IMG/VR virus record: IMGVR_UViG_3300031963_000006
Coordinates: 124,001 to 188,000 of that record
Length of the DNA stretch: 64,000 nt
Reading direction: 5' to 3' (one strand)
Source of the DNA: a virus
Below are positions 42,471 through 62,325 of the stretch, piece by piece. Each line of letters opens with the position of its first letter. Positions within the stretch are counted from its first letter, which is position 1. The translations under genes and the position numbers were made by a program. The notes under the pieces were generated by a model that had not been told where the DNA came from, ran no database searches, and saw only the letters and a list, made by a program, of their open reading frames with translations.

Positions 42471-42716
42471 ATGGCACTTTCAGATTCAGATAAAAAACAA
42501 ATAGAAGTTATGATTCGAAAGGAAATTAAGGATTTCATCGGAAGTAACACTATGAGACAGTATGAGGATAAGATTTTAGAATTAGTGTCTAAAGAAATCC
42601 GTAGAGGTAAACTTGAAAGTGACACTAAAGAAATAGTAATAAAAGTCTTCAGAGAGTTCTACAATTTTATGTGGTCTCAACGAGGATATTGGGAACCAAG
42701 ATTAAAAAATGCGTAA
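42471..42716 (+). CDS. Small conserved-looking phage protein, unknown function
   Basis: 81 residues, starting MALSDSDKKQIEVMIRKEIK, mostly helical and charged, with an aromatic end (FREFYNFMWSQRGYWEPRL). It begins two bases after the previous stop, and its end overlaps the next gene by eight bases. No membrane segment. Family not recognised. Confidence 0.7.
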   Translation: MALSDSDKKQIEVMIRKEIKDFIGSNTMRQYEDKILELVSKEIRRGKLESDTKEIVIKVFREFYNFMWSQRGYWEPRLKNA

Positions 42717-43644
42717 AATTAAATTAACCGAGAATATTCTCAAGCAACTTTCTTCAAAAATTTCAGACAATATTTTGTCTAATTCTAATATTATGTCAAC
42801 AAATCCTATCGAAGGAATGAAAGACATTAATGTTTTACAAAAAAAGATAGAGAGTAATGAGGAAATTGAAGAAAAATGGTCTGAAAAATACAAAAAAAGT
42901 ATAGATTGTAACAATCCCAAAGGATTTAGCCAAAAAGCCCATTGCCAAGGAAGAAAAAAGAAAGTAAAGGAAGAGATTGAAGAATCTGAAGTTAAAGACA
43001 TAAAACTGTATGACTTGGCAAAACAACATTCTAAAAGTGATTCTACTGAAAAAATTTCCAAAATATATAATATTCTCAAGAGACAACTTAAAAAAGGGAT
43101 GAAAGTTGAAATGGAACATGAGATGGGTCTTAAAAAGGCTAAGAAAATTGCAATGGACCACCTTAAGGAAGACCCAAAATATTATGATAAACTAGAGAAG
43201 ATAGAGAATAAGGAAGCGACTGGTGCAGGGGTGGCCGGAGGTTTTGTTGGACCTGTAGGATTTAATCCTGATAGTGATTTTGTTAAGAAAAGCTTTAAAG
43301 AGACTCCTAAAAAAATTGAATCAAATGAAGCCACGGGCGCTTCCTCAGCTGGCGCATATGACGCTCCTGGATTTGAAGATGTTAATATGAAAGGTAATCA
43401 TGAACGTGGTTCAGGTAAGTCGTTCAAAAAAACACAGATACCCCAAGGAAAGTTCGTTCAAGTAAAAAAGAAATGTAAAAAGTTTCCTTATTGTAATCAA
43501 GGAGATATTAAAGCTTTAAACATATTTGAAAATAACACTCTCAACAAGGTTATTAAAGATGTTAGTAAAAAGTATAACATCAGTGAACAGGTCGTTAAAA
43601 ATATTATAGAGTACGAATATAATTTGATAAAAGATAAACTATAA
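42709..43644 (+). CDS. Candidate internal virion/prohead protein, DUF5661-like region
   Basis: 311 residues, Lys- and Glu-rich. The N-terminus MRKIKLTENILKQLSSKISD is a short amphipathic helix like those of five other proteins here. Residues 66-80 carry the Cys-containing motif DCNNPKGFSQKAHC before a basic run. Around 145-170 the sequence VEMEHEMGLKKAKKIAMDHL with EDPKYYDKL matches the pattern of DUF5661. A Gly/Ala segment and two near-repeats around EATGAGVAGG and EATGASSAGAY follow. The C-terminus holds a second Cys pair and an amphipathic helix. A head-core or packaged-protein role is inferred from these features and the neighbours. Confidence 0.7.
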   Translation: MRKIKLTENILKQLSSKISDNILSNSNIMSTNPIEGMKDINVLQKKIESNEEIEEKWSEKYKKSIDCNNPKGFSQKAHCQGRKKKVKEEIEESEVKDIKLYDLAKQHSKSDSTEKISKIYNILKRQLKKGMKVEMEHEMGLKKAKKIAMDHLKEDPKYYDKLEKIENKEATGAGVAGGFVGPVGFNPDSDFVKKSFKETPKKIESNEATGASSAGAYDAPGFEDVNMKGNHERGSGKSFKKTQIPQGKFVQVKKKCKKFPYCNQGDIKALNIFENNTLNKVIKDVSKKYNISEQVVKNIIEYEYNLIKDKL

Positions 43645-43655
43645 CGTAAAAATTA

Positions 43656-43667
43656 GATATTTATAAA
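43656..43667 (+). promoter_or_regulatory. Late-type promoter motif GATATTTATAAA
   Basis: Good match to RATATTTATNA, in the 35-base gap before the next gene and 12 bases upstream of its ATG at 43680. Confidence 0.55.
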
Positions 43668-43679
43668 TAAAAAAATCGC

Positions 43680-44897
43680 ATGAAAAAGTCTTTAAACAAC
43701 TATATTAATTCGTTAGTAAATAAAATTATTAACGAAACTATTGAAGAAAGAGCTGACGAATTAGTTACAAAATTAACCGAAGGTGATAAAATGGTTTGTG
43801 AACAATGTGGTGGAGAAACGAGAGAGGGAATTTGTGAACAGTGTTCATCTGGTTCTATGAATGAAACTGATAATTTTGACTATGTTGCTGAAGAAGAGGA
43901 ATTTGGTTCAGACCCGGCAGGTATGATTGATAAATTCTGTGATACAAGTAGTGATGAATATAATAAAGCTGCTTGTAAATATCATGAAGAAAGATTTATG
44001 GGTGGTGAAGTAAGTGAAAAATTACACGGTGGGCAGAAAAAAATTGATGTTGCAGAACCTAAAGGTAAAATTACAGGTGCTGACTTCAAAAAATTAAGAA
44101 GCATGAAAAAAGAAACTGATGAAGAAGTTGAAGAAGGTAATGCTTTTACAGGCGCTTTGGCTAATGCTAAAGAAGAAGGATATGAAACTTTTGAAGTTGA
44201 TGGTAAAAAGTATAATGTTAAAGAATCTATTAGAATGACAGAAAGTGAAATGATTGATTTCATTGAAAAAATTGTTTTGCAGGAGGAGGAAAAATTAAAG
44301 TCTATGGGTAAAACTAAAGGTCTTAATGTTTATCAAAAGGCCCACACCGCTTCAGGAAAGGAAAATAAAGAATACTTACAATCTGTCGTTAAAAAAATGA
44401 AGGATTATTTGAAAGATGGTTCTAAAGGAGAATATGATATGAATCCTGAAATATTTCCAAAGGGAAACGGAGAGTTAGCTAAGATGGATAAAAAGGCTTA
44501 CACACCTTCAGATGCGGTTAAAGATTATACAGATAATTTTATAGCTGCGGGATTAGAAAATCTTGATTATGATGAAATTCATCCTAATGAGGATTGGGTT
44601 GATGACAATGTTGAGGGTTCTTCAAGAACTGGAAACAATCCTGAATGGGTAAATACAGGTAAATCTGATGTTAACAAAAAAAGAAATAAAATTAGAAAAG
44701 ACAACATGTTAGCGAAGGTTAAAAGAAAAGCTTACAATAAGTCACCACAACCAGTCGTTCAAGACACTCAAGATGGAGAAAAGGCTAATAAGATTTTGAT
44801 GAAATTGGAGTCAGTTGATGAAAAAACCACAAAACAAATAAATGAAGAGTTTGAAAGAATGAAAAATTTAATTGGTTATAATCAAAAGACTCAATAA
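43680..44897 (+). CDS. Candidate internal virion protein with zinc-ribbon-like motif
   Basis: 405 residues, strongly charged. The N-terminus MKKSLNNYINSLVNKIINE is an amphipathic helix ending at an I-N-E site; a similar unit recurs inside (MTESEMIDFIEKIVLQE, about 190). A Cys4 element, CEQCGG and CEQCSSG, lies at about 41-60, and further Cys at 85 and 95. A middle strand reads GYETFEVDGKKYNVKES. The C-terminal half resembles flexible Lys/Asp/Asn-rich phage head-core proteins and ends INEEFERMKNLIGYN. The late-type motif just upstream supports a virion role. No named family is assigned. Confidence 0.7.
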   Translation: MKKSLNNYINSLVNKIINETIEERADELVTKLTEGDKMVCEQCGGETREGICEQCSSGSMNETDNFDYVAEEEEFGSDPAGMIDKFCDTSSDEYNKAACKYHEERFMGGEVSEKLHGGQKKIDVAEPKGKITGADFKKLRSMKKETDEEVEEGNAFTGALANAKEEGYETFEVDGKKYNVKESIRMTESEMIDFIEKIVLQEEEKLKSMGKTKGLNVYQKAHTASGKENKEYLQSVVKKMKDYLKDGSKGEYDMNPEIFPKGNGELAKMDKKAYTPSDAVKDYTDNFIAAGLENLDYDEIHPNEDWVDDNVEGSSRTGNNPEWVNTGKSDVNKKRNKIRKDNMLAKVKRKAYNKSPQPVVQDTQDGEKANKILMKLESVDEKTTKQINEEFERMKNLIGYNQKTQ

Positions 44898-44929
44898 TAT
44901 ACATTAAAAATATCTTAACTATATTTTAT

Positions 44930-44948
44930 CCATAAGAGTTTCTTATGG
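44930..44948 (+). promoter_or_regulatory. Hairpin enclosing a start codon
   Basis: CCATAAGA and TCTTATGG form a perfect 8-bp inverted repeat with a three-base loop. The ATG at 44945 is part of the right arm, so in mRNA the start codon would be paired. This could damp or regulate translation of the following gene. Confidence 0.45.
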
Positions 44949-45412
44949 ATAATTTTTTTAATTACGTTACAAAACAGGTTAGCCCTGAAGAAGTTGATTT
45001 ATGGTTCAAAAGTAACAACATAATTCCTGAAAAATTGGAATTGTTCTCTGATTTTTGTAGGTCATTAAATGAGTTAATAATCGAGACTTATTTAGGAGAA
45101 ACGGATTCACCGAATGAAACAAAAGTTAATATGTCTGAAGAGGATAAGATTAATCACTTTATTTGGTGCTGGAATAAAGTCATAGATAACTTTTTAAAAG
45201 AAAACATCAAGTTCAGCAAAAAAGGAGAACACTTCGATTACATGGTTTCATTTTTCGAAGAAATATTCTACAAACAAGAAAATAAAAAAGTAAGAGATTC
45301 AGTTACTGATTTTTTTGAAGACCTTTTTGATTTGAAAACACCGTTCACCAAATCTGATTTGGACATGATAAGTACTGTCTATAAAAGTCTCGATAAAAAT
45401 ATGAATAAATAA
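44945..45412 (+). CDS. Acidic helical protein of unknown function
   Basis: 155 residues, rich in Asp, Glu, Phe and Lys and mostly helical; the pattern VTKQVSPEEVDLWFKSNNI opens a probable helical domain. No membrane segment or known motif. Its start codon lies within a predicted hairpin (44930-44948). Followed by 78 bases without a gene that end in a host-type promoter. The function is unknown. Confidence 0.72.
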   Translation: MDNFFNYVTKQVSPEEVDLWFKSNNIIPEKLELFSDFCRSLNELIIETYLGETDSPNETKVNMSEEDKINHFIWCWNKVIDNFLKENIKFSKKGEHFDYMVSFFEEIFYKQENKKVRDSVTDFFEDLFDLKTPFTKSDLDMISTVYKSLDKNMNK

Positions 45413-45468
45413 AAAAATTGTTTTTCTCTTTACTACTATCAAGGAAAAATTAATATTAATTATTATAA

Positions 45469-45476
45469 TAAATTTG
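45469..45476 (+). promoter_or_regulatory. Host-type -7 box TAAATTTG
   Basis: Matches TAnnTTTG and lies 14 bases before the ATG of the histone-like gene. No clear TTTG is found at the expected -33 distance. Confidence 0.5.
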
Positions 45477-45490
45477 TAAAAATAATTACG

Positions 45491-45673
45491 ATGGAAACTT
45501 TAGAAAAAATCAAATCACTGACAGAAGAACTGTCAATGGATGCGACCAAATTCTTCAAAGGTAATAAAAGTGCTGGGACAAGAGCTAGAAAATCTGCTCA
45601 AGAACTTAAGGCTTTGTTACAAACCTTGAGAGGTGAAATTTTGGAAGAAAGAAAAAAAACTGATAATGCTTAA
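45491..45673 (+). CDS. Hc1-type histone H1-like protein
   Basis: 60 residues with the Bacteroidota Hc1 pattern: an N-terminal helix (ETLEKIKSLTEELSMDATKF), then FKGNKSAGTRARKSAQELK and a second charged helix. Host members of this family (about 58-60 residues) are small DNA-associated proteins. Here it may bind phage DNA or alter the host nucleoid; which of these is unknown. Full length and without damage. Eight bases overlap the next gene. Confidence 0.82.
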   Translation: METLEKIKSLTEELSMDATKFFKGNKSAGTRARKSAQELKALLQTLRGEILEERKKTDNA

Positions 45674-45851
45674 TATAGATAATTTATTTTTTTTCATTTT
45701 CATTTTTTCAGTTTTAGTTGTTTTAAGAACAACAGTTAGGTTAATAGGCGCCCTGTCACAAAACTCTGAAACAAGAGTTATTAAAAGTGATAGGGAGCTT
45801 GTTATCCTCGGATTAACAATATCATACATCATAACTTACTTATTTCGATAA
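45666..45851 (+). CDS. Small membrane protein
   Basis: 61 residues from the ATG at 45666, which overlaps the histone gene's end by eight bases; the frame is open further upstream but that would bury it in the histone gene. The N-terminal segment NLFFFIFIFSVLVVL and the C-terminal ILGLTISYIITYLF are membrane spans. The function is unknown. Confidence 0.6.
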   Translation: MLNIDNLFFFIFIFSVLVVLRTTVRLIGALSQNSETRVIKSDRELVILGLTISYIITYLFR

Positions 45852-45855
45852 TCAT

Positions 45856-46287
45856 ATGAGTCTATATAAAGAATTTTCAAGTTTATTTCCTTATTTACAA
45901 TCGGTTAGGAAGTTAAAAAACTATTTAAGTTTTGATGTAAGTTTTCCTGAATCATGGAAGTTACCCAAAAAGTATGTTGAAGAGGATAAAATCCTACAAC
46001 AAGAATCACAAACACCGGGTGAAAAACTATTCTCATTTGTTTCTGAGTTTAATGAAGAAGAAGTAGAGAGAGTATCCGGAAATGTTAAAAATATTATCAA
46101 TTATAATTTGGAAAGAGAAGAAAAAGAAAGATTATTCCAATCCAAAGTTGACGAGTTAAAAAATGTATTTGAAAAACAAAGTCTAACAAATTTAAAAAAT
46201 CTCAAATTTGATATTAAGTCAACACAAACTTTAGAATTAGAAGACAATGAAGACGAGCTCAAAACAACTGCAGTGGCTACAAAGTGA
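45856..46287 (+). CDS. Unknown charged protein
   Basis: 143 residues beginning MSLYKEFSSLFPYLQSVRKL, with a folded-looking N-terminal third (FDVSFPESWKLPKKYVEED) and a long charged helix from about 80 on. No family is recognised. It is the first of three plus-strand genes that overlap end-to-start, which implies coupled translation of a set. Confidence 0.7.
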   Translation: MSLYKEFSSLFPYLQSVRKLKNYLSFDVSFPESWKLPKKYVEEDKILQQESQTPGEKLFSFVSEFNEEEVERVSGNVKNIINYNLEREEKERLFQSKVDELKNVFEKQSLTNLKNLKFDIKSTQTLELEDNEDELKTTAVATK

Positions 46288-46423
46288 AATTGAGAAGGAT
46301 AAACGAGACATTGAAAATGAAAAACTTAAGTTTATCCAACAAATTAAAAAAATAAAAAAAGAGGATGTAGTTCCTAAAAAACTGAGTCTATGGAAAAGAA
46401 TCCTGAGATTATTTATGGGATGA
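46247..46423 (+). CDS. Short coiled-coil protein overlapping both neighbours
   Basis: 58 residues. It reads MKTSSKQLQWLQSEIEKDK, a charged helix with Ile/Lys repeats, then PKKLSLWKRILRLFMG, a basic aromatic end that could touch membrane or protein. It overlaps the previous gene by 41 bases and the next by 34, both in other frames. Support comes from its filling the gap between two genes with a full reading frame and a regular heptad-like pattern. Confidence 0.6.
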   Translation: MKTSSKQLQWLQSEIEKDKRDIENEKLKFIQQIKKIKKEDVVPKKLSLWKRILRLFMG

Positions 46424-46656
46424 TAGAAAGAATGGCGTTAATTTCTGACGCTATTGATAACTTATTTATTAACGGTAGAAAAGTTATTGTTATTGAGCTT
46501 AATAAGATTGATTTTGAGGAAACCAAAAAACAATTTAAGAATGTAAGTCCTGATTTAAACCAGTTCAAAATTGATATATCAGGAGTTGAATTTATCTTTA
46601 TTTTGGATGAGTTGTTGAATGTCTCTGAAGATAAGTCCGAGGAAACCCTTGGGTAA
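46390..46656 (+). CDS. Unknown small protein
   Basis: 88 residues, starting MEKNPEIIYGMIERMALISD, with an alpha/beta pattern (VIVIELNKIDF and VEFIFILDELL strands). No motif is recognised. It overlaps the previous small gene, and its 3' end overlaps that of the convergent minus-strand gene by 59 bases. Confidence 0.66.
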   Translation: MEKNPEIIYGMIERMALISDAIDNLFINGRKVIVIELNKIDFEETKKQFKNVSPDLNQFKIDISGVEFIFILDELLNVSEDKSEETLG

Positions 46657-47239
46657 CCAAAATATCATATAAGTATTTCCTATGGATTGTTGAGTAATCT
46701 TTTACTAATATACAATCGTTTTTGTTTGTTTTTCTTAAGTATTGACCTAAATCGTCCAAAAACCTATCAGCATCTGAGTTATTCTTAAAAGTGAATAAAT
46801 TGTAACTCTCATCTATTTGAACCACAATCTTATTATTTAATTTAGATATCATCTTGATACCGACCACCGAAAGATATTTTCTAACAAAATCTTTAGAGTT
46901 TATTTTCTTTTTAGTTTGATAGTCTAAAAATTCTTCCTCAATTTCAAATGAAATTATTTTACTGATAGTAAATTCATCATCATCTAAATCAACTTTGATT
47001 TGCCTGCCGAGCTCATCTTTGATGAATATTTTATCATTCTTTGAACTTTTTCTTTCTAATATTGCAAGTTCATAAAATGAGGGATTACCGTTTTCATATT
47101 TAACTGGGAAAATAACATTATTAGATTCATCAATAAGACTTTTGAACTTAGTATTTGTTTTTTTATAAGTTTTAAACTTATTGATTATTTTCTTTTTTAC
47201 TTTATTTTTGAATAAAACAATTTGGAAATTATAGTCCAT
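46598..47239 (-). CDS. Unknown protein on minus strand
   Basis: 213 residues, Lys/Asp/Ile-rich, mixed alpha/beta; starts MDYNFQIVLFKNKVKKKIIN. No known domain, signal peptide or membrane segment is visible. It stands alone on the minus strand between plus-strand runs and is convergent with the small gene at 46390, with a 59-base 3' overlap. No terminator is visible between them. Its function is unknown. Confidence 0.72.
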   Translation of the reverse strand: MDYNFQIVLFKNKVKKKIINKFKTYKKTNTKFKSLIDESNNVIFPVKYENGNPSFYELAILERKSSKNDKIFIKDELGRQIKVDLDDDEFTISKIISFEIEEEFLDYQTKKKINSKDFVRKYLSVVGIKMISKLNNKIVVQIDESYNLFTFKNNSDADRFLDDLGQYLRKTNKNDCILVKDYSTIHRKYLYDILVTQGFPRTYLQRHSTTHPK

Positions 47240-47280
47240 ACTAAATAATAAGAATCATTAAATAATATTAAATATTGATT

Positions 47281-48207
47281 ATGAGTACTGAAAGTTATTA
47301 TGACATTTTAGGTGTTTCAGAAACCGCAACACAAGATGAAATTAAAAAGGCGTATAGAAAGAAGGCGGTAGAACATCACCCTGACAAAGGTGGGGATGAA
47401 CAAGTATTTAAAAAAATATCAGAGGCGTATGATACGGTAGGTGATGAGAATAAACGCAGACAGTATGACGCTCAGAAAAATAATCCGTTTGGAGGAGGGT
47501 TCAATCCTTTTGAAGACTTTTTCTCTCAATTTGGAGGAAGACAACAACGTCAACAAAGACCTCAAGTACCTGATAAGGTTGTAAATCTTGATGTTACGGT
47601 TATTGAATCTTATTTGGGTGTTGATAAAACTATTAATTATAGTCGTAAACACGCTTGTAATACTTGTAGCGGTAGTGGGGGTGATAGGAATACCTGTAGT
47701 AAATGTAATGGACAAGGTTTCGTTACAGTTAGAATGGGTAATGGAATGTTCATTCAAATGATGCAACAGATGTGTGATTTATGTGGAGGACAAGGTTCTG
47801 TATTGACAAGGAGATGCGGTACTTGTAACGGACAAGGTACAAGGTCTGAAATGGAAAGTGTGACATTCAAATTACCGCACGGCTCAGACAACGGTCAATT
47901 CTATAGAATGAATGACTTAGGTGATTATCACAATGGTTTTTACGGAAACTTAGTTATTAAAGTCAACTTGGTTAATTCCGATAACTTTGAAAAAATGGGT
48001 AATGATTTAATTTATAACTCTTACCTCAATTTAGATGATTTAAATAAAAATTCTGTTGGTGTTCCTCATCCTGACGGTGAAATGAGAGTTAACTTTCCTT
48101 TAGAGTTTGATACATCAAAACCCCTTAGAGTAAAATCTAAAGGGTTCAAAAATGGAGGTCAAGGAGACCTTTATGTAAAATTGTTCGTTAAGTTTAAAAG
48201 AGGTTGA
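47281..48207 (+). CDS. dnaJ: DnaJ/Hsp40 co-chaperone
   Basis: 308 residues from the ATG at 47281; a TTG two codons earlier is less likely. Domain order is classic type I: J-domain (residues 1-70) with HHPDKGG; a short Gly/Phe-rich linker (FGGGFNPFEDFF); a zinc domain at about 123-190 with four C-x-x-C-x-G-x-G-type units; and a substrate-binding C-terminal domain. DnaJ stimulates DnaK ATPase. The protein is shorter than bacterial DnaJ (about 375), mainly in the C-terminal part. In the phage it probably recruits host DnaK for folding or assembly of virion proteins. Confidence 0.92.
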   Translation: MSTESYYDILGVSETATQDEIKKAYRKKAVEHHPDKGGDEQVFKKISEAYDTVGDENKRRQYDAQKNNPFGGGFNPFEDFFSQFGGRQQRQQRPQVPDKVVNLDVTVIESYLGVDKTINYSRKHACNTCSGSGGDRNTCSKCNGQGFVTVRMGNGMFIQMMQQMCDLCGGQGSVLTRRCGTCNGQGTRSEMESVTFKLPHGSDNGQFYRMNDLGDYHNGFYGNLVIKVNLVNSDNFEKMGNDLIYNSYLNLDDLNKNSVGVPHPDGEMRVNFPLEFDTSKPLRVKSKGFKNGGQGDLYVKLFVKFKRG

Positions 48208-48367
48208 TTATATTCTCGATAATTTTAACGGTCCCATAAACTGCGGATATTAAAAAATAAACTGTAAAAACAATCAAAGAAGTTGGAAGAGTCTCCAACT
48301 TTTTTTGTGCGCTACACTTACTACATGATTTTTTTTCAGGGGTGACATCTATTATATTGTTTGACAT
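48194..48367 (-). CDS. Small zinc-pair membrane protein
   Basis: 57 residues read on the minus strand: MSNNIIDVTPEKKSCSKCSA, then KKLETLP and a membrane segment, SLIVFTVYFLISAVYGTVKI. A Cys-x-x-Cys pair precedes the single span. Its 3' end overlaps dnaJ by 14 bases. Support: a full frame in an otherwise empty 250-base gap, hydrophobic character, and a minus-strand TATTTAT motif about 40 bases upstream. The function is unknown. Confidence 0.6.
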   Translation of the reverse strand: MSNNIIDVTPEKKSCSKCSAQKKLETLPTSLIVFTVYFLISAVYGTVKIIENIINLF

Positions 48368-48405
48368 ATTATTAATTTTAAATAAAATATAAGGGTTATT
48401 TTCAA

Positions 48406-48419
48406 ATCTATAAATATTT
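48406..48419 (-). promoter_or_regulatory. Late-type promoter motif AAATATTTATAGAT
   Basis: Minus-strand copy of RATATTTATNA, about 40 bases before the ATG (48367) of the small membrane-protein gene. Confidence 0.42.
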
Positions 48420-48457
48420 TATTTGCCTTTTTAAAATTTATTGTTTATTATTAACTC

Positions 48458-49300: not shown

Positions 49301-49307
49301 TTTATTT

Positions 49308-49320
49308 GATATTTATTAAG
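49308..49320 (+). promoter_or_regulatory. Late-type promoter motif GATATTTATTAAG
   Basis: Copy of the motif in the 33-base gap between genes, 13 bases before the ATG at 49334. Confidence 0.52.
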
Positions 49321-49333
49321 TAAAAACATTCAA

Positions 49334-50725
49334 ATGAGATTTACACAACTTCTAACAAATTTGATTTTGGAACAATCACGTTTCCAAGTTCTGTATGACA
49401 AAATGGTTAAACCCGCAAAAGGTTCTGACGAGGAGGGTAAAAAGGCAAAAGGATTGATGCCCTTTGAAGTATTAAAACATATTATTTTTGCTGACCCAAC
49501 CACAGTAGGCCCAAGATTTACAGATAATGAAAGTCGCTTGGAGTTTATATTAACTGCCACAGAGGAAGAAATGGAGAAAGTTAAAGTTGGTAAGTATACT
49601 CAATGGTTGTTGAAGAATTTTGTGGCTCCTACGTTTGATGACATAGATGAGAGAGCTAATATAGAAAAAGGTACTACCGAGTATAAAAGAATGATGAAAG
49701 ATTATCAAAGTTTGTTCTTGGAAGACTTACACAAAATTACCGAAGACCTTAAAAAGTACGAGAGATTTAAGAATCAGTTACCTCAAGATAAAAGAGATAT
49801 CAATAAAATCTCCGCTAGTGAACTTTATGATTTGGTTAAAGATTTTAAATTAGAAAAGACCAAAGCATCCAAAGAGGAAAAAGAACAAGCTAAAACATCA
49901 TACCAATATCCTGGTAGTGAAATCATGTACAGAGGTTCTGATTGGACTTTGATTAAGATTGAAGATAAAGGTGAGATTGGAAAAAATGCCGCAATATTTT
50001 TCGGAGGTTACCAAGATGGAGATAATGGTGAATCAAGATGGTGTACATCCGCACCTGGATTAAGTTACTTTAATACATACATTAAAGATGGACCTTTGTA
50101 TGTTGTTTTACCAAACGATGATAAAGGACAAGTTGGTAAAAGAACAGGACTTCCAGTTGAAAGATATCAGTTTCACTTCCCATCTAATCAATTTATGGAT
50201 AGACACGATAGAACTGTAAGTTTAGTTGAATTGTTAAATGGAAAAATGTCTGAACTTAAAGAGTTCTTTAAACCTGAATTTGCAAAAGGTTTGGTAAGTA
50301 AAGGTGGAAATAAAGTTGAAGTTAATTATCCTGATAGTTCGGCGGGTAAGTTTATTGCTCTATACGGATTTGAAGAATTATTTGAAAGTTTACCTGATAC
50401 AATTGAACATCTTATTGTTACAAACAAATCAAAAGAAAATATTGCTTTGGATGTTCCAGAAAGTATCACAAGATTTAAGAACCTTGATGCGTTACTAATG
50501 TCAAATATTGTTAGAACATTACCTGAAAATTTGGGTGACCTGAAAAATTTGAAGTTTTTGAATTTGGCAAATAACAAAGATTTAGTATCTTTGCCAGAAT
50601 CAATCAAGGACATACCTAATTTGGCCCTACTCAACCTTAAAGGAGCAAATCCAAATGTTGAGATACCACCGGCACTTAAAGAGGTATTGTCTGACGAAGG
50701 AGAAGGATTTTACTATCTTACTTAA
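49334..50725 (+). CDS. Candidate internal virion protein with WCT-type domain and leucine-rich repeats
   Basis: 463 residues. The N-terminus MRFTQLLTNLILEQ is a short amphipathic tag with an I-L-E site. A helical region follows to about 190, then a domain of unknown function marked by ESRWCTSAPGLSYF, then GPLYVVLPND and YQFHFPSNQFMDRHD (about 235-295), a set of motifs that recurs in large phages. The end (about 340-455) carries leucine-rich repeats such as LKNLKFLNLANNKDLVSLP. No membrane segment. The late-type motif just upstream and the tag point to a packaged protein that may act in the host at entry; this is inferred. Confidence 0.72.
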   Translation: MRFTQLLTNLILEQSRFQVLYDKMVKPAKGSDEEGKKAKGLMPFEVLKHIIFADPTTVGPRFTDNESRLEFILTATEEEMEKVKVGKYTQWLLKNFVAPTFDDIDERANIEKGTTEYKRMMKDYQSLFLEDLHKITEDLKKYERFKNQLPQDKRDINKISASELYDLVKDFKLEKTKASKEEKEQAKTSYQYPGSEIMYRGSDWTLIKIEDKGEIGKNAAIFFGGYQDGDNGESRWCTSAPGLSYFNTYIKDGPLYVVLPNDDKGQVGKRTGLPVERYQFHFPSNQFMDRHDRTVSLVELLNGKMSELKEFFKPEFAKGLVSKGGNKVEVNYPDSSAGKFIALYGFEELFESLPDTIEHLIVTNKSKENIALDVPESITRFKNLDALLMSNIVRTLPENLGDLKNLKFLNLANNKDLVSLPESIKDIPNLALLNLKGANPNVEIPPALKEVLSDEGEGFYYLT

Positions 50726-54620: not shown

Positions 54621-54633
54621 AAAAACAAAAAAT

Positions 54634-54957: not shown

Positions 54958-55231
54958 GATTGTAGTTGTGTTCACAATGAAAACATGTGGATTCTGTGAA
55001 CAATTTAAAACAAAATTGACTGAGAATAACATTGGGTTCGTAAATAGAGATATTAACGAAAACAAAGAGGAATATGACGCTTTCGTGAAAGCCACGGGAA
55101 ATGATTTTGTTCCTTCTTTTATGGTTATAGAATCTCCGAATGAAAATCCAAAGTCGTATTTGTACGCACCTGGAAAAGATTTCGAAGATTTGGACAAAGC
55201 TTTAGGTATTATCAAAGAACACTTAGGTTAG
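54950..55231 (+). CDS. Glutaredoxin-like protein
   Basis: 93 residues. A redox pair CGFC is found at 13-16 (FTMKTCGFCEQFK), a cis-Pro in FVPSFMV (about 59), and the alternating strand-helix order fits the glutaredoxin/thioredoxin fold. The usual glutaredoxin CPYC is changed to CGFC. Its ATG is inside the end of the thioredoxin gene, so the two are made together as a redox pair. Confidence 0.85.
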   Translation: MDKIVVVFTMKTCGFCEQFKTKLTENNIGFVNRDINENKEEYDAFVKATGNDFVPSFMVIESPNENPKSYLYAPGKDFEDLDKALGIIKEHLG

Positions 55232-55233
55232 TT

Positions 55234-56579: not shown

Positions 56580-56636
56580 ATAAAATGTTTTTGAAATAGA
56601 TAAACAAAAAAATTCAAATCCTAAATACTTTAAATT

Positions 56637-56662
56637 AAAAAAGGGGTCAAAACCCCTTTTTT
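56637..56662. terminator. Bidirectional rho-independent terminator
   Basis: AAAAAAGGGGT and ACCCCTTTTTT form an 11-bp stem with a four-base loop, giving U-tracts in both directions. It directly follows, on the minus strand, the small gene at 56677 and shields the gene at 55755. Confidence 0.85.
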
Positions 56663-56676
56663 AATTTTTCGAAAAA

Positions 56677-56838
56677 TTACTTTTTGTAGTATTTCTCCAC
56701 TGTCTTCCTAATAGACTCCTGAATATTTTGATTGTTACTCGGTGGTGGAGCCTGTTGAGGTTGAGGTTGTGGAGGAACCTGTTGACCCAACGGTTGAGGT
56801 TGAGCCTGATTACCTTTGTTTTTACATCCGCATCCCAT
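56677..56838 (-). CDS. Small Cys-rich N-terminus, Pro/Gln-rich protein
   Basis: 53 residues on the minus strand: MGCGCKNKGNQAQPQPLGQQ, then a Pro/Gln-rich stretch and a C-terminal basic helix (NIQESIRKTVEKYYKK). The Gly-Cys-Gly-Cys start could bind metal or form disulfides; the rest is a flexible linker to a helix. It has its own late-type motif upstream and terminator downstream, hence a one-gene transcript. The gene fills an otherwise empty 340-base stretch. Its role is unknown; such proteins are plausible virion decorations or adaptors. Confidence 0.65.
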   Translation of the reverse strand: MGCGCKNKGNQAQPQPLGQQVPPQPQPQQAPPPSNNQNIQESIRKTVEKYYKK

Positions 56839-56863
56839 ATCTTTTTATTTTTAAACGTTTATA

Positions 56864-56877
56864 TATCATAAATATCT
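56864..56877 (-). promoter_or_regulatory. Late-type promoter motif AGATATTTATGATA
   Basis: One of the best copies of RATATTTATNA, on the minus strand, 25 bases before the ATG of the 53-residue gene. Confidence 0.55.
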
Positions 56878-56917
56878 AAATTTGGTATATATTGTAAATA
56901 TTTTATTTGAATTAACA

Positions 56918-56930
56918 AATATTTATGATT
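56918..56930 (+). promoter_or_regulatory. Late-type promoter motif AATATTTATGATT at a start codon
   Basis: Plus-strand copy that ends at the ATG at 56931 and overlaps an earlier in-frame ATG (56925). If active, the message would lack a leader or start inside the gene. Confidence 0.42.
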
Positions 56931-58325
56931 ATGACAAAAAGTCTTAGTTTTAAAAATACCGTAAAAAATATATTGATAGAACAGAATGAAGAAGAGTTCT
57001 ACAAAATTTCACCTGAAGAGTTTACAGAACTAATGAAGTTTGGAAGTTATAATGGTAAAGGTGTGAGTAAACTTAAAATGTTCGGAGGTAAACCAATATG
57101 GATTACTGGTAATTTAGATTTGTCAAATACACCAACAGACTCGTTGGGTAATGTTAAATATGTTGAGGGTAGATTAGATATCAGTAGAACAAATATTAGT
57201 GATTTGTCAGGTGTTAAGGTTAAAGGGTATATTTGGGATGGAGGTTCACCTATTGAAAAAAAGAGACTTGCGGCCATTTTAAAGGAAAAGATGAGAGAGG
57301 CCGATGAAAGAAGACAAAGAGATGAATGGAGTATAGATGGAGGAGACGAAATAGGTTTAAGAGCCCAAGCGTTATATAAAAATTTGATAAATGATGAAAA
57401 AATTTTCGCCCCAACAGGAGAATACGTAGGAGAAATAGAAGGTTTAAAGGCCGACTTGGAGGAATTAACTATTAGGTATAATGAAACTGAAGGGGAAGAC
57501 GATGAATTATATAATAAGATAAGTGATATAGAAGAGAGAATTAACGAACTCCAACAAGGAGTGGTGGATGTATATAACATAGTACCAATGAATTATAACT
57601 ATTATGGTTTACCTCAGTTTGAAGTTATTGGTGTTGATGATTTAGTAGGGGAAGAATATGCGGTTGGTGATGAAAGTGAAATGGATGCCGCGGCACTTCA
57701 ATACGCTAAAAATTATCTTGATGAAGCCGGTGTTGAAGGTTTAAGAGATTATTTTATTGAGGACAATTTAGATACCGATGCGATTGAACAATATTTCAGA
57801 GATTTTTATGATGATGATGTTAGGAATAATCTTGAGGTTTATTTTGACGAAAGTGAACTACCTAACACAGAAGAACAAGAAGAAAGGAAACAGGAATTAG
57901 AGGAATACATTGACAAAGCAGAAGGAGTAGTTAAAAAATTTGAACAAAAACAAGAAGACCTTAAAAATAAAATTGAAGACCCCGATGAATATACTAAACA
58001 GTATAACGAGATTCAATCAAAAATAGATATCATTCAAAATCATATTGATAACTCACAAGAGGAAATTGATAATATAGAATCCACAGGACAGATAACTGAG
58101 GAGATGATTGAAGAAAAGATTGAGGATATGGTATCAGATAAAATGAGTGACCCGAGGGGTTCTTTATCTGAATTTGGTATGGATATTAGTGAATATGTTG
58201 ATATGGATTCACTGGCTGAAGCGCTTGCTGAAAGTGATGGATATGAAGTATTAGCATCTTATGATGGAAGTTATGATGGTGAATACATTGACAACAAGTT
58301 TTACTACGTAATCAGAGTTAACTAA
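56931..58325 (+). CDS. Candidate internal virion protein, acidic, LRR-like N-terminus
   Basis: 464 residues from 56931; 56925 would add two. The N-terminus TKSLSFKNTVKNILIEQ is an amphipathic tag with an L-I-E site. Residues 55-95 hold LRR-like strands (GNLDLSNTPTDSLGNVKYVE, GRLDISRTNISDLSG) of a kind common in large-phage proteins. The rest is very acidic, with long coiled-coil helices around 195-225 and 320-395 and a C-terminal beta hairpin (ASYDGSYDGEYI). No enzyme motif. The late-type motif and tag support packaging in the head; the acidity would suit a head-core or DNA-mimic role. Function unproven. Confidence 0.7.
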   Translation: MTKSLSFKNTVKNILIEQNEEEFYKISPEEFTELMKFGSYNGKGVSKLKMFGGKPIWITGNLDLSNTPTDSLGNVKYVEGRLDISRTNISDLSGVKVKGYIWDGGSPIEKKRLAAILKEKMREADERRQRDEWSIDGGDEIGLRAQALYKNLINDEKIFAPTGEYVGEIEGLKADLEELTIRYNETEGEDDELYNKISDIEERINELQQGVVDVYNIVPMNYNYYGLPQFEVIGVDDLVGEEYAVGDESEMDAAALQYAKNYLDEAGVEGLRDYFIEDNLDTDAIEQYFRDFYDDDVRNNLEVYFDESELPNTEEQEERKQELEEYIDKAEGVVKKFEQKQEDLKNKIEDPDEYTKQYNEIQSKIDIIQNHIDNSQEEIDNIESTGQITEEMIEEKIEDMVSDKMSDPRGSLSEFGMDISEYVDMDSLAEALAESDGYEVLASYDGSYDGEYIDNKFYYVIRVN

Positions 58326-58351
58326 ATCTTTTTTTTATCACTAATATCAAC

Positions 58352-58359
58352 TATATTTG
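58352..58359 (+). promoter_or_regulatory. Host-type -7 box TATATTTG close to ATG
   Basis: Exact TAnnTTTG box only seven bases before the ATG at 58367, so the mRNA would be leaderless or nearly so. No TTTG at the -33 distance. Confidence 0.55.
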
Positions 58360-58366
58360 TGATAAC

Positions 58367-59158
58367 ATGTCTAAAAAAACCAAAAATAATAATTCGTTTG
58401 TAATGGATACCGATTGGCTCTTCAATGGGACAATCGACGCCGAACAAAAAGAATATGTACTTTTAGGTTATTTCCAAAAAATGAATAAAAATTTGGAGGA
58501 GATGAGAATTTACCCTATGTTTACCGAACTTTCAATACATTTGGGTAATATTCAAACATTGTTAACTCAAAACAAAATATTATATACTGACAAAAAGTTA
58601 ACTACAGATAATGATGAAATCTTCATTAAAGATTTGAAGGTTAAAGATATACCTGATTTAACTGATGAGGAATTTGCCGAGTATCAAAAAATAATCAAAG
58701 TAAGTCAACCAATGTTATTTGATTATTTTAATATTGCCAAATCATTGTGGTCTTTAGCTTATGACTCAGTAACTGTAAATGCTAAAAGAAATAAAAAGAA
58801 TTTAACAAGTAAGACAGGATTTTATTACACAATTTATAAAGATAATCTTTATGTTTGGAGATATACGATGAAAAAAATAAGGGGTTTTAACAACCAAATT
58901 AGAACCGATGCTAAGTTGATGTTTAGTGGAAGTCCTGATTCAACTGTTATTAAGATTATTTCACAAACATCACCAACATATCGAAAAAACAACGAAAGTA
59001 AGTTACCTGTGATGGAAGTTGTTTGTCATGAAATGTTTCCATTAAATGAAACATTGGTACCAATAATGAAAAGAAAAGTAGTATCTTTGATACACCAAAG
59101 TATGAAAGTTGAAAAGTTATTAGAAGAAAATAAAACTGTTGAAAATGGGGTTCAATAA
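58367..59158 (+). CDS. Unknown protein of accessory operon
   Basis: 263 residues, starting MSKKTKNNNSFVMDTDWLF. The central part is alpha/beta with several Lys/Arg-rich strands (YTIYKDNLYVWRYTMKKIRG) that could contact nucleic acid; the C-terminus is a charged helix. No known family is recognised. It is the first gene behind a host-type promoter and leads a chain of small genes up to the methyltransferase, so it is probably expressed early. Confidence 0.74.
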   Translation: MSKKTKNNNSFVMDTDWLFNGTIDAEQKEYVLLGYFQKMNKNLEEMRIYPMFTELSIHLGNIQTLLTQNKILYTDKKLTTDNDEIFIKDLKVKDIPDLTDEEFAEYQKIIKVSQPMLFDYFNIAKSLWSLAYDSVTVNAKRNKKNLTSKTGFYYTIYKDNLYVWRYTMKKIRGFNNQIRTDAKLMFSGSPDSTVIKIISQTSPTYRKNNESKLPVMEVVCHEMFPLNETLVPIMKRKVVSLIHQSMKVEKLLEENKTVENGVQ

Positions 59159-59318
59159 AATAGTAGTCGGAAAAAATAAAATAAACGAAATTGAGTCGGA
59201 TTTAAATTTGATTGAAATTTATAAAAAGTACGACGCCATGATATTTGAATCTAATGAAATAAGAAATAAATTTAAATTTTTTGAAAATGAATACAATCAA
59301 AAAAAAGTTATTGGATAA
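59145..59318 (+). CDS. Small charged helical protein
   Basis: 57 residues: MGFNKIVVGKNKINEIESDL followed by further Ile/Lys/Glu-rich helix. It overlaps the previous gene by 14 bases and the next by 32. It fills what would otherwise be a 130-base gap in a compact operon. No motif is recognised; existence is supported by frame and spacing only. Confidence 0.55.
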   Translation: MGFNKIVVGKNKINEIESDLNLIEIYKKYDAMIFESNEIRNKFKFFENEYNQKKVIG

Positions 59319-59472
59319 GTTAAGAAGACCCGTCCACATTACGTTTATTTCTAAACACATTTTAAAACTTTCTATGGAAGAAACTGAAAAAGTTATAAAT
59401 GAAATGGTGGATGAAGGGTTGGTAGAAGAAAGTAAGTATGGTAAAGGTTATTATGTTGTAAAAAGTATATAA
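59287..59472 (+). CDS. Small winged-helix-like DNA-binding protein
   Basis: 61 residues from the ATG at 59287; a TTG at 59281 is unlikely. Helix-turn-helix-wing character is seen in HITFISKHILKLSMEETEKV, INEMVDEGLVEESK and a closing YGKGYYVVKSI hairpin. This is the layout of small winged-helix regulators or of the helical part of nucleases. It may regulate the local operon; DNA binding is inferred from the pattern. Confidence 0.62.
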   Translation: MNTIKKKLLDKLRRPVHITFISKHILKLSMEETEKVINEMVDEGLVEESKYGKGYYVVKSI

Positions 59473-59476
59473 AATT

Positions 59477-59701
59477 ATGAAAGAAATGGTGAATCATCCT
59501 GACCATTACGGTGGTGAGGAAAACACATATGAAGTAGTAAAAGTATGTGAGGCTTGGGGACTTGACATGGATGCTTATCTATTCAATGTGGTTAAATACG
59601 TGGCAAGAGCGGGCAAGAAAGATTCAGATAAGGAACTCCAAGACCTAAAGAAGGCCCTTTGGTATTTAGATAGAAAAATTCAAAATCTTGAAAAAAAATG
59701 A
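59477..59701 (+). CDS. DUF3310 protein (nucleotide kinase-like small phage protein)
   Basis: 74 residues with the DUF3310 signature: VNHPDHYGG near the start, YEVVKVCEAWGLD and YLFNVVKYVARAGKKD, ending in a DLKKALWYLDRKI helix. Members are widespread in phages and are often annotated as nucleotide kinase-like, but the activity is not proven. The last four bases (ATGA) overlap the next small gene. Confidence 0.85.
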   Translation: MKEMVNHPDHYGGEENTYEVVKVCEAWGLDMDAYLFNVVKYVARAGKKDSDKELQDLKKALWYLDRKIQNLEKK

Positions 59702-59847
59702 ATTTGATTTGGTGGGTGTTTGTTTTTTCAATATTTTTTTATCCATTGTTTATATTTGTGGTAATTTATACTAACAAATATCCAAACAATAGATTTTCGA
59801 AGTGGTGGAAAAAACACATTATAGATAAAAATGAAAATTATGATTGA
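59698..59847 (+). CDS. Small membrane protein overlapping methyltransferase start
   Basis: 49 residues: MNLIWWVFVFSIFFYPLFIF, a strong membrane segment, then a basic, Trp-Trp-containing tail (SKWWKKHIIDKN). It begins with ATGA at the DUF3310 stop and overlaps the methyltransferase start by 17 bases. The regular spacing and hydrophobic pattern support a real gene. The topology would place the basic tail in the cytoplasm. Confidence 0.6.
   Translation: MNLIWWVFVFSIFFYPLFIFVVIYTNKYPNNRFSKWWKKHIIDKNENYD
59751..59758 (+). promoter_or_regulatory. Possible host-type -7 box TATATTTG before methyltransferase
   Basis: Exact -7 sequence but located within the coding part of the small membrane-protein gene and without a TTTG at the right distance. 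It could serve the methyltransferase 73 bases downstream. Confidence 0.3.
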
Positions 59848-60697
59848 AAACTATATAAATAAAGTAATTAACGGAGATTGCATCAAAGTTATGGGTGAAA
59901 TGCCCGAAGGTTCTATTGACTTGATTGTTACTAGTCCACCCTATGGAGTGAACATTGCATATGACACCCATGATGATGATATGGAAATTAATGAGTATCT
60001 TGAGTTCAGTAAGAACTGGCTAACCGAGGCTTATAAAGTTTTGAAAGACGATGGAAGAATTGCCTTGAATATCCCCTACGAGATTAACCGTCAAGAAAAG
60101 GGTGGTCGTATATTTTTTGTATCCGAGGTTTATCAGATTATGAAACAAATTGGATTTAAATTCTTTGGAATTGTTGACCTTGAAGAGGATAGTCCCCACA
60201 GAAGTAAGACAACGGCTTGGGGTAGTTGGATGAGTCCGTCAAGTCCATATATCTATAACCCAAAAGAGTGTGTAATACTTGCATATAAGAAAAACCACAT
60301 TAAGAAAGTTAAGGGTCAACCACAATGGAAGGGCGAACCAATAACAACCGAGGAAGGTAAGACAAAGATGTTGTACACCGAACAGGACAAAAAGGAATTT
60401 ATGGAATTGGTGTTCGGGCAATGGAAGTATCTTAATGACTCAAGACCACTAACCAAGGCAACTTTCTCAATGGACATCCCAACCAAGGCAATTAAGATAT
60501 TGTCATATAAGAATGACATAATATTAGACCCCTTCAATGGTAGTGGAACAAGTTGTGTGGCTGCAGAAATTTTAGATAGAAGGTGGATTGGTATTGAACT
60601 TTCTGAAAATTATACTAAAATTGCTACAGAAAGGATACAATCTTTCGTTGACCAAAAAAGGCAACAAGTTTTAGAGTTTGAAAATGGGGGTGAATAA
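59831..60697 (+). CDS. DNA methyltransferase, N4-cytosine/N6-adenine type
   Basis: 288 residues; an ATG at 59840 is an alternative start. The catalytic motif TSPPYG (about 36) comes first and the SAM-binding DPFNGSGTSCVAAE (about 235) near the end, with RWIGIELSENYTKIA after it. This beta-class order with Ser-Pro-Pro-Tyr is typical of m4C enzymes, though m6A cannot be excluded. No restriction endonuclease is next to it, so protection of phage DNA is the likely purpose. It differs in class from the Dam-like enzyme at 48458. The end forms part of a terminator hairpin. Confidence 0.87.
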   Translation: MKIMIENYINKVINGDCIKVMGEMPEGSIDLIVTSPPYGVNIAYDTHDDDMEINEYLEFSKNWLTEAYKVLKDDGRIALNIPYEINRQEKGGRIFFVSEVYQIMKQIGFKFFGIVDLEEDSPHRSKTTAWGSWMSPSSPYIYNPKECVILAYKKNHIKKVKGQPQWKGEPITTEEGKTKMLYTEQDKKEFMELVFGQWKYLNDSRPLTKATFSMDIPTKAIKILSYKNDIILDPFNGSGTSCVAAEILDRRWIGIELSENYTKIATERIQSFVDQKRQQVLEFENGGE

Positions 60698-60719
60698 CCT
60701 CCATTTTTGTTTTTGTGAA
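60681..60719 (+). terminator. Terminator overlapping end of methyltransferase gene
   Basis: AAAATGGGGG and CCTCCATTTT can form a 10-bp stem (one G-U pair) with a seven-base loop that contains the stop codon; the T-rich TTTGTTTTTG follows. Confidence 0.7.
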
Positions 60720-60729
60720 TATTTATATA
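60718..60729 (+). promoter_or_regulatory. Late-type promoter motif AATATTTATATA
   Basis: Copy of RATATTTATNA directly after the methyltransferase terminator and 10 bases before the ATG at 60740. A terminator followed by a late motif marks a change of expression class. Confidence 0.55.
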
Positions 60730-60739
60730 AAAAAAATCT

Positions 60740-60925
60740 ATGAGAGGTAAAATTCTATCTGAAGAACAATTTAAAGATAAGTTAATCCAAATTTATAATG
60801 AGGAGAAACATTCTTTGGTCAAAGAAAAAATTCAAATGTATGTTGAAAAAAGAAAGTCTTCCGTTAACGAAGAGGTTCAAGATTCATTAATAACATTGAA
60901 GAATATTTTTGGAGGTAAAAAGTAA
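60740..60925 (+). CDS. Small late protein with tag-like N-terminus
   Basis: 61 residues: MRGKILSEEQFKDKLIQIYN then a charged helix with an EKRKSSVNEE segment, ending FGGKK. The N-terminus resembles those of the candidate internal virion proteins. Its stop shares a base with the ATG of the DHH gene (TAATG), so both come from one late-type message. The function is unknown; it could be a packaging or scaffolding partner for the DHH protein. Confidence 0.65.
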   Translation: MRGKILSEEQFKDKLIQIYNEEKHSLVKEKIQMYVEKRKSSVNEEVQDSLITLKNIFGGKK

Positions 60926-62325
60926 TGAAAAAAATACTCTCAGAAAGTGGTATAAGAGATATCAAAGCTTTATCTCAAAGATATCCAAAGGCTGAAATAT
61001 ATTTTCACCAAGACCTTGATGGGGTCACTACGGCCATAGCCATGAAATCATATCTTGAACAACATGGTATTGAGGTAATTGACGCTCACGTAATTCAATA
61101 TGGTGACAAAGAGTTTTCAATAAAGAAAAACGACGCAACAGGTGATGTGATGCCGGTTCTTGTTGATTTTGCCCACGGTAAACCAATGTTCGTTATTCAT
61201 ACTGACCACCACGATAGACAAGCTGGCGCCGAAGATACCAAATCAACATCTTTCAGACAATCTCGTTCAAATGTAGAGACAATATCACAGATTGTTTCAC
61301 CTAAAGAAATATTTCCAGAAAAAGATATTTTATTAATTTCAACAGTTGATTCTGCCAACTTCGCAAAATATGATATTACTCCTGAACAAGTAATGAATTA
61401 TTTGTTTAAGTTTGATAAAGACTCGTCATTATTAAAGAATAAAATGGCGATGGGTATGGTTGCTAATAAATTATTATTGGCGTTTAAGAACAAACCTGGA
61501 TTCTTAGAAAGATTAGTTATGGAATCAACTCCATCTTTAACTAATATTCTTGTTAATATAAGACAAATTATGAAGGAAAAGGGATATGCTGATATTCCCG
61601 AACTTGAAAAACATAAGGAGGATTATGTTCAAAAAATGAAGAGTTATCCTGAAGTATCTAATAATATAATAGTTCAATACGGTGGTGGTAGTATGATGAA
61701 ACCAGGTTCATATGATAGATATACACCATTTAGAAATAACCCTGAGGCGGACTTTTTAGTTATTGCCTGGCCAATGGGACTGTTACAGGCTTCTTGTAAT
61801 CCATTTAAAAAAGATAGAGAATTGAAAGGTGTTAACTTAGGTGATATTGCCCAAGAGGTATTATCTAAATGGGAAGGACAATTAAAGGACAGACAAATAC
61901 CACTATCAACTATCAAATGGATATCTGAAGACGTTAAAGGTTTTGGACCTGAGTCAGTTGGATTTACCTTCAAAGATTTTGTGGCTTTATATGGTAAGAA
62001 CTATAAGTCAATGCAAAATGGAAAAGAAGAGTTGATTAACATAGGTAATTTGATGGAAAAACCATTTGAACAGTTGACCGATGAAGAGAGACAAATATTA
62101 GATGATGTTACGGTTAGTGCTTGGGATGTCATTCAATCCAATTCAGGGGGGCACAAATGTATTACAAACATTTCAGGTTTAATGTATATGGGAAGGTCCA
62201 ATAGACCACCACAAGGAAAATACAAGTATGACCCCGAGAGAGAGGATTCCCCATACGTTAAATTTCTTAAGATGTTACAAAGAGAATTTGTTAGAGTATT
62301 ACAGGAAAAGATTGGTCAGTCTTAA
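60925..62325 (+). CDS. DHH-family phosphoesterase (RecJ/NrnA-like)
   Basis: 466 residues. Motif I is FHQDLDGVTTAIA (about 28-40), the DHH motif proper is HTDHHDRQAG (about 92), the third Asp is in LISTVDSANF (about 138) and a DHHA1-type SGGHKCITN is at about 410. These Mn-dependent enzymes degrade single-stranded DNA or short oligonucleotides and nucleotide signals. The N-terminus MKKILSESGIRDIKALSQ is tag-like. It is expressed behind a late-type motif, which is unusual for a RecJ-type repair enzyme and hints at a virion or late-stage role, such as degrading host nucleotides or processing DNA ends. The exact substrate cannot be judged. Confidence 0.82.
   Translation: MKKILSESGIRDIKALSQRYPKAEIYFHQDLDGVTTAIAMKSYLEQHGIEVIDAHVIQYGDKEFSIKKNDATGDVMPVLVDFAHGKPMFVIHTDHHDRQAGAEDTKSTSFRQSRSNVETISQIVSPKEIFPEKDILLISTVDSANFAKYDITPEQVMNYLFKFDKDSSLLKNKMAMGMVANKLLLAFKNKPGFLERLVMESTPSLTNILVNIRQIMKEKGYADIPELEKHKEDYVQKMKSYPEVSNNIIVQYGGGSMMKPGSYDRYTPFRNNPEADFLVIAWPMGLLQASCNPFKKDRELKGVNLGDIAQEVLSKWEGQLKDRQIPLSTIKWISEDVKGFGPESVGFTFKDFVALYGKNYKSMQNGKEELINIGNLMEKPFEQLTDEERQILDDVTVSAWDVIQSNSGGHKCITNISGLMYMGRSNRPPQGKYKYDPEREDSPYVKFLKMLQREFVRVLQEKIGQS

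Follow-up and report, generated by a model that had tools for sequence, protein, structure and literature searches.

Candidate capsid-targeting propeptides at the N-termini of unrelated proteins in a large virus record and its relatives

The internal proteins IPI, IPII, IPIII and Alt of phage T4 have unrelated bodies and carry a short N-terminal peptide ending in (I/L)-x-E, the capsid-targeting sequence (CTS), which is processed by the protease gp21. According to excerpts of PMC9026906, residues 4 and 7 of the CTS serve targeting and residues 8 and 10 serve processing, and the tag alone loads a foreign protein into T4 heads. Alt is cut at ITE-6 and at LTE-619 (excerpts of PMC5694885). Head-internal proteins of phiKZ and SPN3US also have N-terminal propeptides removed by a gp21-related protease, and the giant-phage paralogues gp53 and gp54 have an identical N-terminus; the cleavage motifs in these phages are S/A/G-x-E or A-x-E, not (I/L)-x-E (excerpts of PMC5694885). 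Here we focus on similar N-terminal segments, or tags, of unrelated proteins encoded in a 64,000-base stretch referred to as the window (bases 124001-188000 of the 215,250-base virus record IMGVR_UViG_3300031963_000006; G+C 32%). There is a strong probability, based on comparison with related sequences, that these tags are capsid-targeting propeptides cut by a gp21-type protease.

A sequence-only reading of the window had described six open reading frames, chosen by eye for the pattern. All six are present on the plus strand with the N-termini that it had quoted, and their bodies are indeed unrelated to one another by Pfam and PHROGs. The protein at 42709..43644, the weakest of the six, has a Pfam match to DUF5661 over the cut-off and opens MRKIKLTE-N (site LTE-8). 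A zinc-ribbon-like protein at 43680..44897 has the tag MKKSLNNYINSLVNKIINE (INE-19), a WCT/LRR protein at 49334..50725, with an LRR match below the cut-off, has MRFTQLLTNLILE (ILE-13), and an acidic protein at 56931..58325 has MTKSLSFKNTVKNILIE (LIE-17). A protein of 61 amino acids (aa) at 60740..60925 opens MRGKILSE-EQ.. (LSE-8), and its last base is overlapped by the start of a DHH phosphoesterase at 60925..62325 with a seven-residue tag, MKKILSE-S (LSE-7). Nothing convincing was found in Pfam or PHROGs for the proteins at 43680, 56931 and 60740. The (I/L)-x-E site, earlier noticed in three of the six, is found in all six, each time within the first 19 residues.

The tags resemble the T4 CTS in their overall design, which is likewise seen in the T4 proteins of AF158101. 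They are not classed as CTS of the T4 IPIII type because they are without the Tyr/Phe targeting residues (Tyr4 and Phe7 in IPIII), and they belong to several other sequence classes. The lineage also differs from T4 in having tandem and internal tags, perhaps C-terminal ones too, and seems to have many more cargos, i.e., 44 tagged families, as counted with a simple rule that lets chance matches through as well, against the four named internal proteins of T4.

Evidence that bears on cleavage comes from orthologues. Related loci were the best 80 of at least 599 relatives for the DHH gene and the best 80 of 142 for the gene at 43680. Genes were called by a simple caller, and some starts may be wrong; genes whose start is no more than 40 bases from the end of a locus were left out, as were proteins shorter than 60 aa for clustering, and clusters of low coding score were dropped from the family lists and from the column test described below. 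Among 62 distinct DHH orthologues, E7 is present in 62/62 and residue 5 is I or L in 61/62. The residue between them is K, N, T, S or V and lies at the 92nd percentile of variability in a protein that is otherwise very conserved. In the 50 orthologues of the 49334 protein, E13 is found in 47/49 and residue 11 is invariably I, V or L, and the variability of residue 12 ranks at the 85th percentile. Similarly, the 52 orthologues of the 43680 protein have E19 in 49/52 and I or L at residue 17 in 49/51, and residue 18 is at the 74th percentile. A fixed I/L and a fixed E around a variable middle residue is the trace expected of an (I/L)-x-E protease site. The site is conserved also in the 56931 family and in full-length relatives of the 60740 protein. 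Residues 1-44 of the latter align to residues 1-44 of a tagged family of ~376 aa with a score of 84 (best of 40 shuffles, 71), 37/40 members of which end within 60 nt of the DHH start in relatives; the 60740 gene is probably a shortened copy of the gene of this family, which in relatives immediately precedes DHH.

Tags are both swapped and shared among bodies. For example, in the 31-member family of the 56931 protein, 19 of the 26 distinct N-termini listed have a tag before a common body start (..YYKISPEE or near), and the remaining seven are without that body start. The 19 tags are diverse, including MTKSLSFKNTVKNILIEQ, MGRKLRLTESELYKVIKRIIKET, MNKKMILTNKELLQVVKQIVEQ, MNRRIFLSENKMDRLLTLIKEQ and the short MRKLERLLEQ, and all of them end in (I/L)-x-E. 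Another swap on one body is seen between a gene of the record (locus L002, 2082-2543) and a relative (L203:2405). Conversely, the same tag occurs on proteins with unrelated bodies: an RLTES-like motif is found on eight body families. The codons of this common motif differ among the eight families, so selection acts on the protein. Tag classes in the lineage include MK[YI]LITESQ.., RLTESDLxxIVKRVIxE, FIISEEExxxIRxxYGLINEQ and MKK[LI]IxE-S. These classes appear to be exchangeable between orthologous cargos. Searches (tblastn) of named phage records with class-B and class-C tag peptides, which are too short for this purpose, yielded nothing except two marginal hits (E = 7).

The link to a T4-like head is provided by relatives. 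Both gp23 (PF07068) and gp21 (PF03420) are carried by 7/13 large related records, and 6/13, all 173-215 kb long, have neither; PF03420 is positive in T4, in RM378 and in the Flavobacterium phage immuto. In all seven capsid-bearing relatives, the bS21 gene lies close to gp21 on the opposite strand. The same arrangement is described in bS21-encoding Bacteroidetes jumbo phages of lakes, which have a similar size range and hosts predicted to be Bacteroidetes; excerpts of that source (PMC9723584) do not mention tags and suggest possible packaging for bS21 itself only. No bS21 was found in the record of the window. The sole bS21 N-terminus inspected, that of relative G008 (L203 11448-11639), has no tag.

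The capsid protein of the relatives opens ..LINE|ATSDGSSGSF or a near form, a gp21 site by homology. In four relatives, and also in the record itself (L003:619-1338), a tagged gene a few kb from the capsid gene has (I/L)xE|ATSDSSGxRGSF or a variant of it, so that the context (I/L)xE|AT(S/G) around the presumed cut is common to the capsid protein and this tagged family. Beyond (I/L)-x-E, the downstream residues of the six sites of the window differ from those of the capsid protein. In relative G003, a gene within the capsid operon opens MKITISEGQYKILSEYF. The 42709 protein has internal EATGxxSAGxF motifs that recall the mature start of the capsid protein (ATSDGSSGSF), with 103 such matches in its family.

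Flavobacterium phage vB_FspM_immuto (NC_055915), a cultured T4-like phage of 160 kb, resembles the lineage in that it encodes gp21 and gp23 and has tagged genes crowded into a block in the head module and ahead of the terminase. It differs in size and in having mostly its own tag classes; those in the Flavobacterium relative include FDLKKFLVENKLTxNSxLLKE, ILSEQFxRMQxLAGIITE and MKKSQLRxIIKEAL. An equal frequency of tags in cytosolic enzymes, which would have spoken against packaging, was not seen in immuto: tags are present in 14/25 non-enzyme genes at the immuto head module and in 6/43 annotated enzymes, the block having been picked after the data were seen and two of the six tag-bearing enzymes lying inside it. 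Two tags of the ILSEQFxRMQxLAGIITE class resemble the C-terminus of the presumed scaffold protein (EQVSRWQKLAGIIK) with scores of 49 and 42. Among 300 shuffled queries run over the proteome, 49 was reached in none and 42 in seven, and comparison of other C-termini with N-termini reached 42 in 0/200. 'Scaffold' is here assigned from the position of the gene, which lies between gp21 and gp23 like its T4 counterpart, and the immuto gene is annotated otherwise. If the tags are capsid-targeting, this C-terminus is a suggested docking partner for at least one tag class.

A comparable likeness is found in the window. The C-terminal segment EEFERMKNLIGYNQKTQ of the 43680 protein (44844..44894, plus strand) is similar to the C-terminal end of the presumed scaffold protein in relatives, which was the top multi-member family when the comparison was made end to end and was missed when it was unrestricted; we regard this likeness as suggestive. 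The same protein contains an internal tag-like segment, MTESEMIDFIEKIVLQEE (44235..44288, plus strand), ahead of its second conserved domain, and the class-B tag profile matches the equivalent internal place in many orthologues. The 43680 protein, which has no match among named phages, has in effect a polyprotein-like layout, with an N-terminal tag, a zinc-ribbon-like part, the internal tag-like segment, the second domain and the scaffold-like C-terminus.

Tags with T4 spacing are found on DHH orthologues of huge phages. Those of LR745206 and LR756502, phages of 634 and 642 kb, open MISKYNQFINE and MLRKYGQFINE, which match exactly the spacing YxxFIxE of T4's MKTYQEFIAE (AF158101). The pattern [YF]xx[FY][IL]xE within the first 18 residues is present in 4/24 genes of three huge-phage stretches, two of which are the DHH orthologues, and in 2/39 genes of T4, 1/204 of immuto and 0/217 of the controls. 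The controls are crAss001, phi38:1 and phi14:2, all Bacteroidota phages in which PF03420 (gp21) is silent. The three huge phages have gp23.

Based on these comparisons we infer that tagged proteins dock, are cleaved, packaged and injected, as follows. Tagged proteins would be made late in infection together with the structural proteins. Each would bind through its short tag to the scaffold core as the head forms and become enclosed. A gp21-type protease would then cut after (I/L)-x-E, as it presumably does in the major capsid protein. The cleaved bodies would be free within the head and would be delivered along with the DNA. Head packaging and maturation by protease had been proposed for all six proteins of the window; the comparative checks favour five of them, and the case for the 42709 protein is weak.

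A TATTTAT promoter-like element may bear on late synthesis. As the sequence-only reading had noted, it lies at most 24 bases upstream of four of the genes, all on the plus strand: at 43658..43664 ahead of 43680, at 49310..49316 ahead of 49334, at 56920..56926 ahead of 56931, where it overlaps an alternative ATG at 56925, and at 60720..60726 ahead of 60740. The fifth gene, 60925, is coupled to 60740 by the overlap, and no TATTTAT is present within 24 bases upstream of 42709 or 60925. A family was counted as having the element when half or more of its members carry it no further than 32 bases upstream; by this count it is present in 24/44 tagged and 43/278 untagged families (p = 8e-8). In the stretches of the record, TATTTAT starts cluster at two distances upstream of the start codon, ~11-12 and 22-24 bases, which suggests two promoter spacings. 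A gene of the window at 38808-39494, sigma-70-like by eye, is a candidate reader of TATTTAT promoters.

The promoter link is shared with virion genes: TATTTAT also precedes untagged long genes of the record that are tail-fibre- or baseplate-like by sequence. An alternative, which we consider unlikely, is that the tags attach proteins to the virion in another way, e.g., at the neck, the baseplate or the tail, or at the head but uncleaved, with (I/L)-x-E forming part of a docking helix. The use of one element by tagged and untagged structural genes fits this alternative, as do the class-B-like segments inside the 43680 family and inside the protein of L200:13671-14969 (residue 297 of 432), and an immuto protein with a tag-like start encoded just upstream of baseplate genes. 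However, a docking helix needs no near-invariant Glu after a free residue right before the body, and in one tagged family the site has the same context as that in the major capsid protein. In addition, T4 Alt is itself cut near both ends (excerpts of PMC5694885).

Whether the bare pattern exceeds chance depends on how it is defined. A hydrophobic residue followed by (I/L)-x-E within the first 26 residues is found in 30/175 genes of the record, 38/119 genes of the relatives' capsid stretches and 32/183 genes of immuto, against 14/202 in the controls (p = 0.002, 1e-8 and 0.0016, respectively). When an internal stretch of these proteins is taken instead, the counts are 14, 10 and 10, and 17 in the controls. 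The density of (I/L)-x-E at residues 6-26 relative to residues >=45 is 1.70 (1.26-2.21) in the record, 2.93 (2.35-3.57) in the relatives, 1.78 (1.34-2.29) in immuto and 1.16 (0.87-1.49) in the controls. Proteins shorter than 70 aa were dropped from the density tests, and the total of the record's own genes varies with the filter (175, 177, 180 or 189). The T4-like phage RM378 gives 1.61 (1.01-2.38) over 49 genes, 6/49 of which have the hydrophobic-(I/L)-x-E pattern. Over 60 families, conserved [ILV]-variable-E columns occur in 12/1765 positions at residues 5-35 and 15/9927 in the bodies (p = 2.6e-4), and no comparable N-terminal excess was seen in this column test when E was replaced by D, K, R, Q, N, S or T.

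Several results weigh against the interpretation of the tags as cleaved capsid-targeting propeptides. A lone (I/L)-x-E with E at residues 6-20 is found in 42/177 other genes of the record and 45/210 control genes (7/53 for other genes of the window); because it is equally common in control phages, a lone site near the N-terminus is not diagnostic. The density of (I/L)-x-K is also raised near N-termini, to 2.16 in the record, exceeding the value for (I/L)-x-E, and to 1.42 in immuto, 1.45 in the controls and 1.32 in the relatives (interval includes 1); the N-terminal excess is therefore partly general. Four of the 11 families behind the 12 column hits are domain-like (DnaJ, epimerase and two others), so the true figure of the column test is smaller. 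In T4 itself (31 kb, 38 genes) the (I/L)-x-E density of 1.57 (0.93-2.52) is not significant, and [YF]xx[FY][IL]xE is present in the first 18 residues of 0/189 genes of the record. N-termini in the family of the 42709 protein are heterogeneous and have no common tag, and many genes with TATTTAT have no tag. In the huge phages, the S77 matches located 2-4 kb from gp23 are below the Pfam cut-off. A helix of the presumed scaffold (MKEEIKELVKESLNEQ) was tried as the origin of the class-B tag and rejected, as its best profile score ranks 248 among 430,254 internal positions and is not significant. Profile searches of the record found neither gp21 nor gp23; 14 control genomes were likewise silent, so these searches by themselves do not establish absence, and the same models are positive in 7/13 relatives. 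The record seems to be cut off at its left end because the genes there flank the capsid gene in relatives, and the break probably lies beside the capsid module. Finally, no virion or cleavage data were found for these phages, and no virion proteome was found for immuto; none is given in the excerpts of PMC7077304, which deals with related Flavobacterium phages.

The frequency of the lone motif in control phages and the plain domains among the column hits are what would be expected if the tags were ordinary N-terminal helices, which often begin with basic residues and carry a Ser/Thr-Glu cap, and look-alikes had simply been picked out. The specificity for E, the pattern in orthologues, the tag swaps, the promoter link and the T4-like tags on DHH orthologues argue against this, and we consider it very unlikely. 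It is still harder to credit that a 5' gene module consisting of promoter, leader and first codons has spread by recombination for the sake of expression, with the peptide as a by-product. TATTTAT does lie close to many tagged starts, and a cassette of MKYLITESQ paralogues is found just outside the window, but different families use different codons for the same residues, and constraint on the peptide falls on particular positions. Equally improbable is that the tags address proteins within the infected cell, to the membrane, a host target or a phage compartment: several are amphipathic by eye, and a sigma factor and nucleases as cargo would also act in the cell, but the links to the capsid module, the presumed scaffold and the capsid cut site point to the virion. 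Signal peptides were dropped, the tags having no long hydrophobic run by eye.

The cargos of propeptides of this kind would be varied. In the DHH protein, HQDLDG, DHHD and SGGHK are invariant across 26 aligned orthologues, although the match to Pfam PF01368 (20.7 bits) is below the cut-off of 28.1. Its structure model has a mean pLDDT of 67, with residues 1-10 below 50, and RecJ and further DHH proteins make up most of the top Foldseek matches, whose TM-scores are low. Among relatives, a tagged sigma-70-like protein (L080:8481-9104) matches Sigma70_r2 with 28.9 bits (cut-off 24). A tagged protein resembling Acb1 or a 2'-5' ligase (L078:1173-1694) is encoded near DHH at one locus, with a match below the Pfam cut-off. 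Acb1 was found in 0/8 large records, and the Acb1-like tagged protein is thus known from L078 alone; a full-text search found no literature that pairs Acb1 with virion packaging. In L078 (1173-3916), the Acb1-like (anti-CBASS) tagged gene is one gene from DHH, which could hint that DHH acts on cyclic nucleotides. Other tagged bodies include a peptidoglycan-binding-like protein with a match below the cut-off and, in immuto, NT5C and PD-(D/E)XK proteins with matches just below it.

It is possible, and we put it forward tentatively, that aquatic T4-like jumbo phages load dozens of unrelated enzymes into the head by means of scaffold-mimicking, freely swapped tags and cut them free there, and that the virion delivers this payload (DHH; in relatives a sigma factor, an Acb1-like anti-CBASS enzyme and nucleases) before phage gene expression. 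That T4-like phages can package diverse proteins by means of the CTS is already suggested in excerpts of PMC9026906; the range of tag classes, cargos and swaps seen in the lineage was not found in the portions of the literature searched. If the tags are capsid-targeting propeptides, the T4 capsid-targeting sequence, so far a matter of a few internal proteins, would extend to a lineage-wide system of several classes. The N-terminus alone would then predict virion cargo among the many unknown proteins of jumbo phages, giving a testable annotation list, and whether phages inject ready-made transcription factors and counter-defence enzymes would become a testable question.

The list of tagged genes in the sequence-only reading was incomplete. 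It missed a seventh tagged gene of the window at 41197..41805 (plus strand; start 41197 or 41251), the upstream neighbour of the 42709 gene and a member of a 79-member family that has tandem tags, ..TINE-QISEIKNRYGIITEQ-GS... In this family (I/L)-x-E with variable x is present in 24/24 distinct N-termini listed and is followed by Q in 22/24, and 2/24 have a single tag rather than tandem tags. Further tagged genes lie in the next 20 kb outside the window. Just downstream of it, a run of small adjacent genes on one strand (L173 12332-16076, record ~200332-204076) consists mostly of genes that open MKYLITESQxD..IFKYLDNQDF or a near variant, i.e., a duplicated cassette of one tag class. A minus-strand gene, L169 19017-19796, encodes a protein that is superoxide-dismutase-like by eye and has an N-terminal LKEEIILQE..FLITE stretch, with TATTTAT upstream. 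Within the window, the minus-strand gene at 23553-24821 encodes a protein opening MLTENLKKIIEEF, which by its NNHV and GGDSGS motifs is trypsin-type serine protease-like by eye. A phage-encoded SmpB-like gene (by eye) at 62871-63302 lies near a DUF192-like gene (by eye) at 62322-62663.

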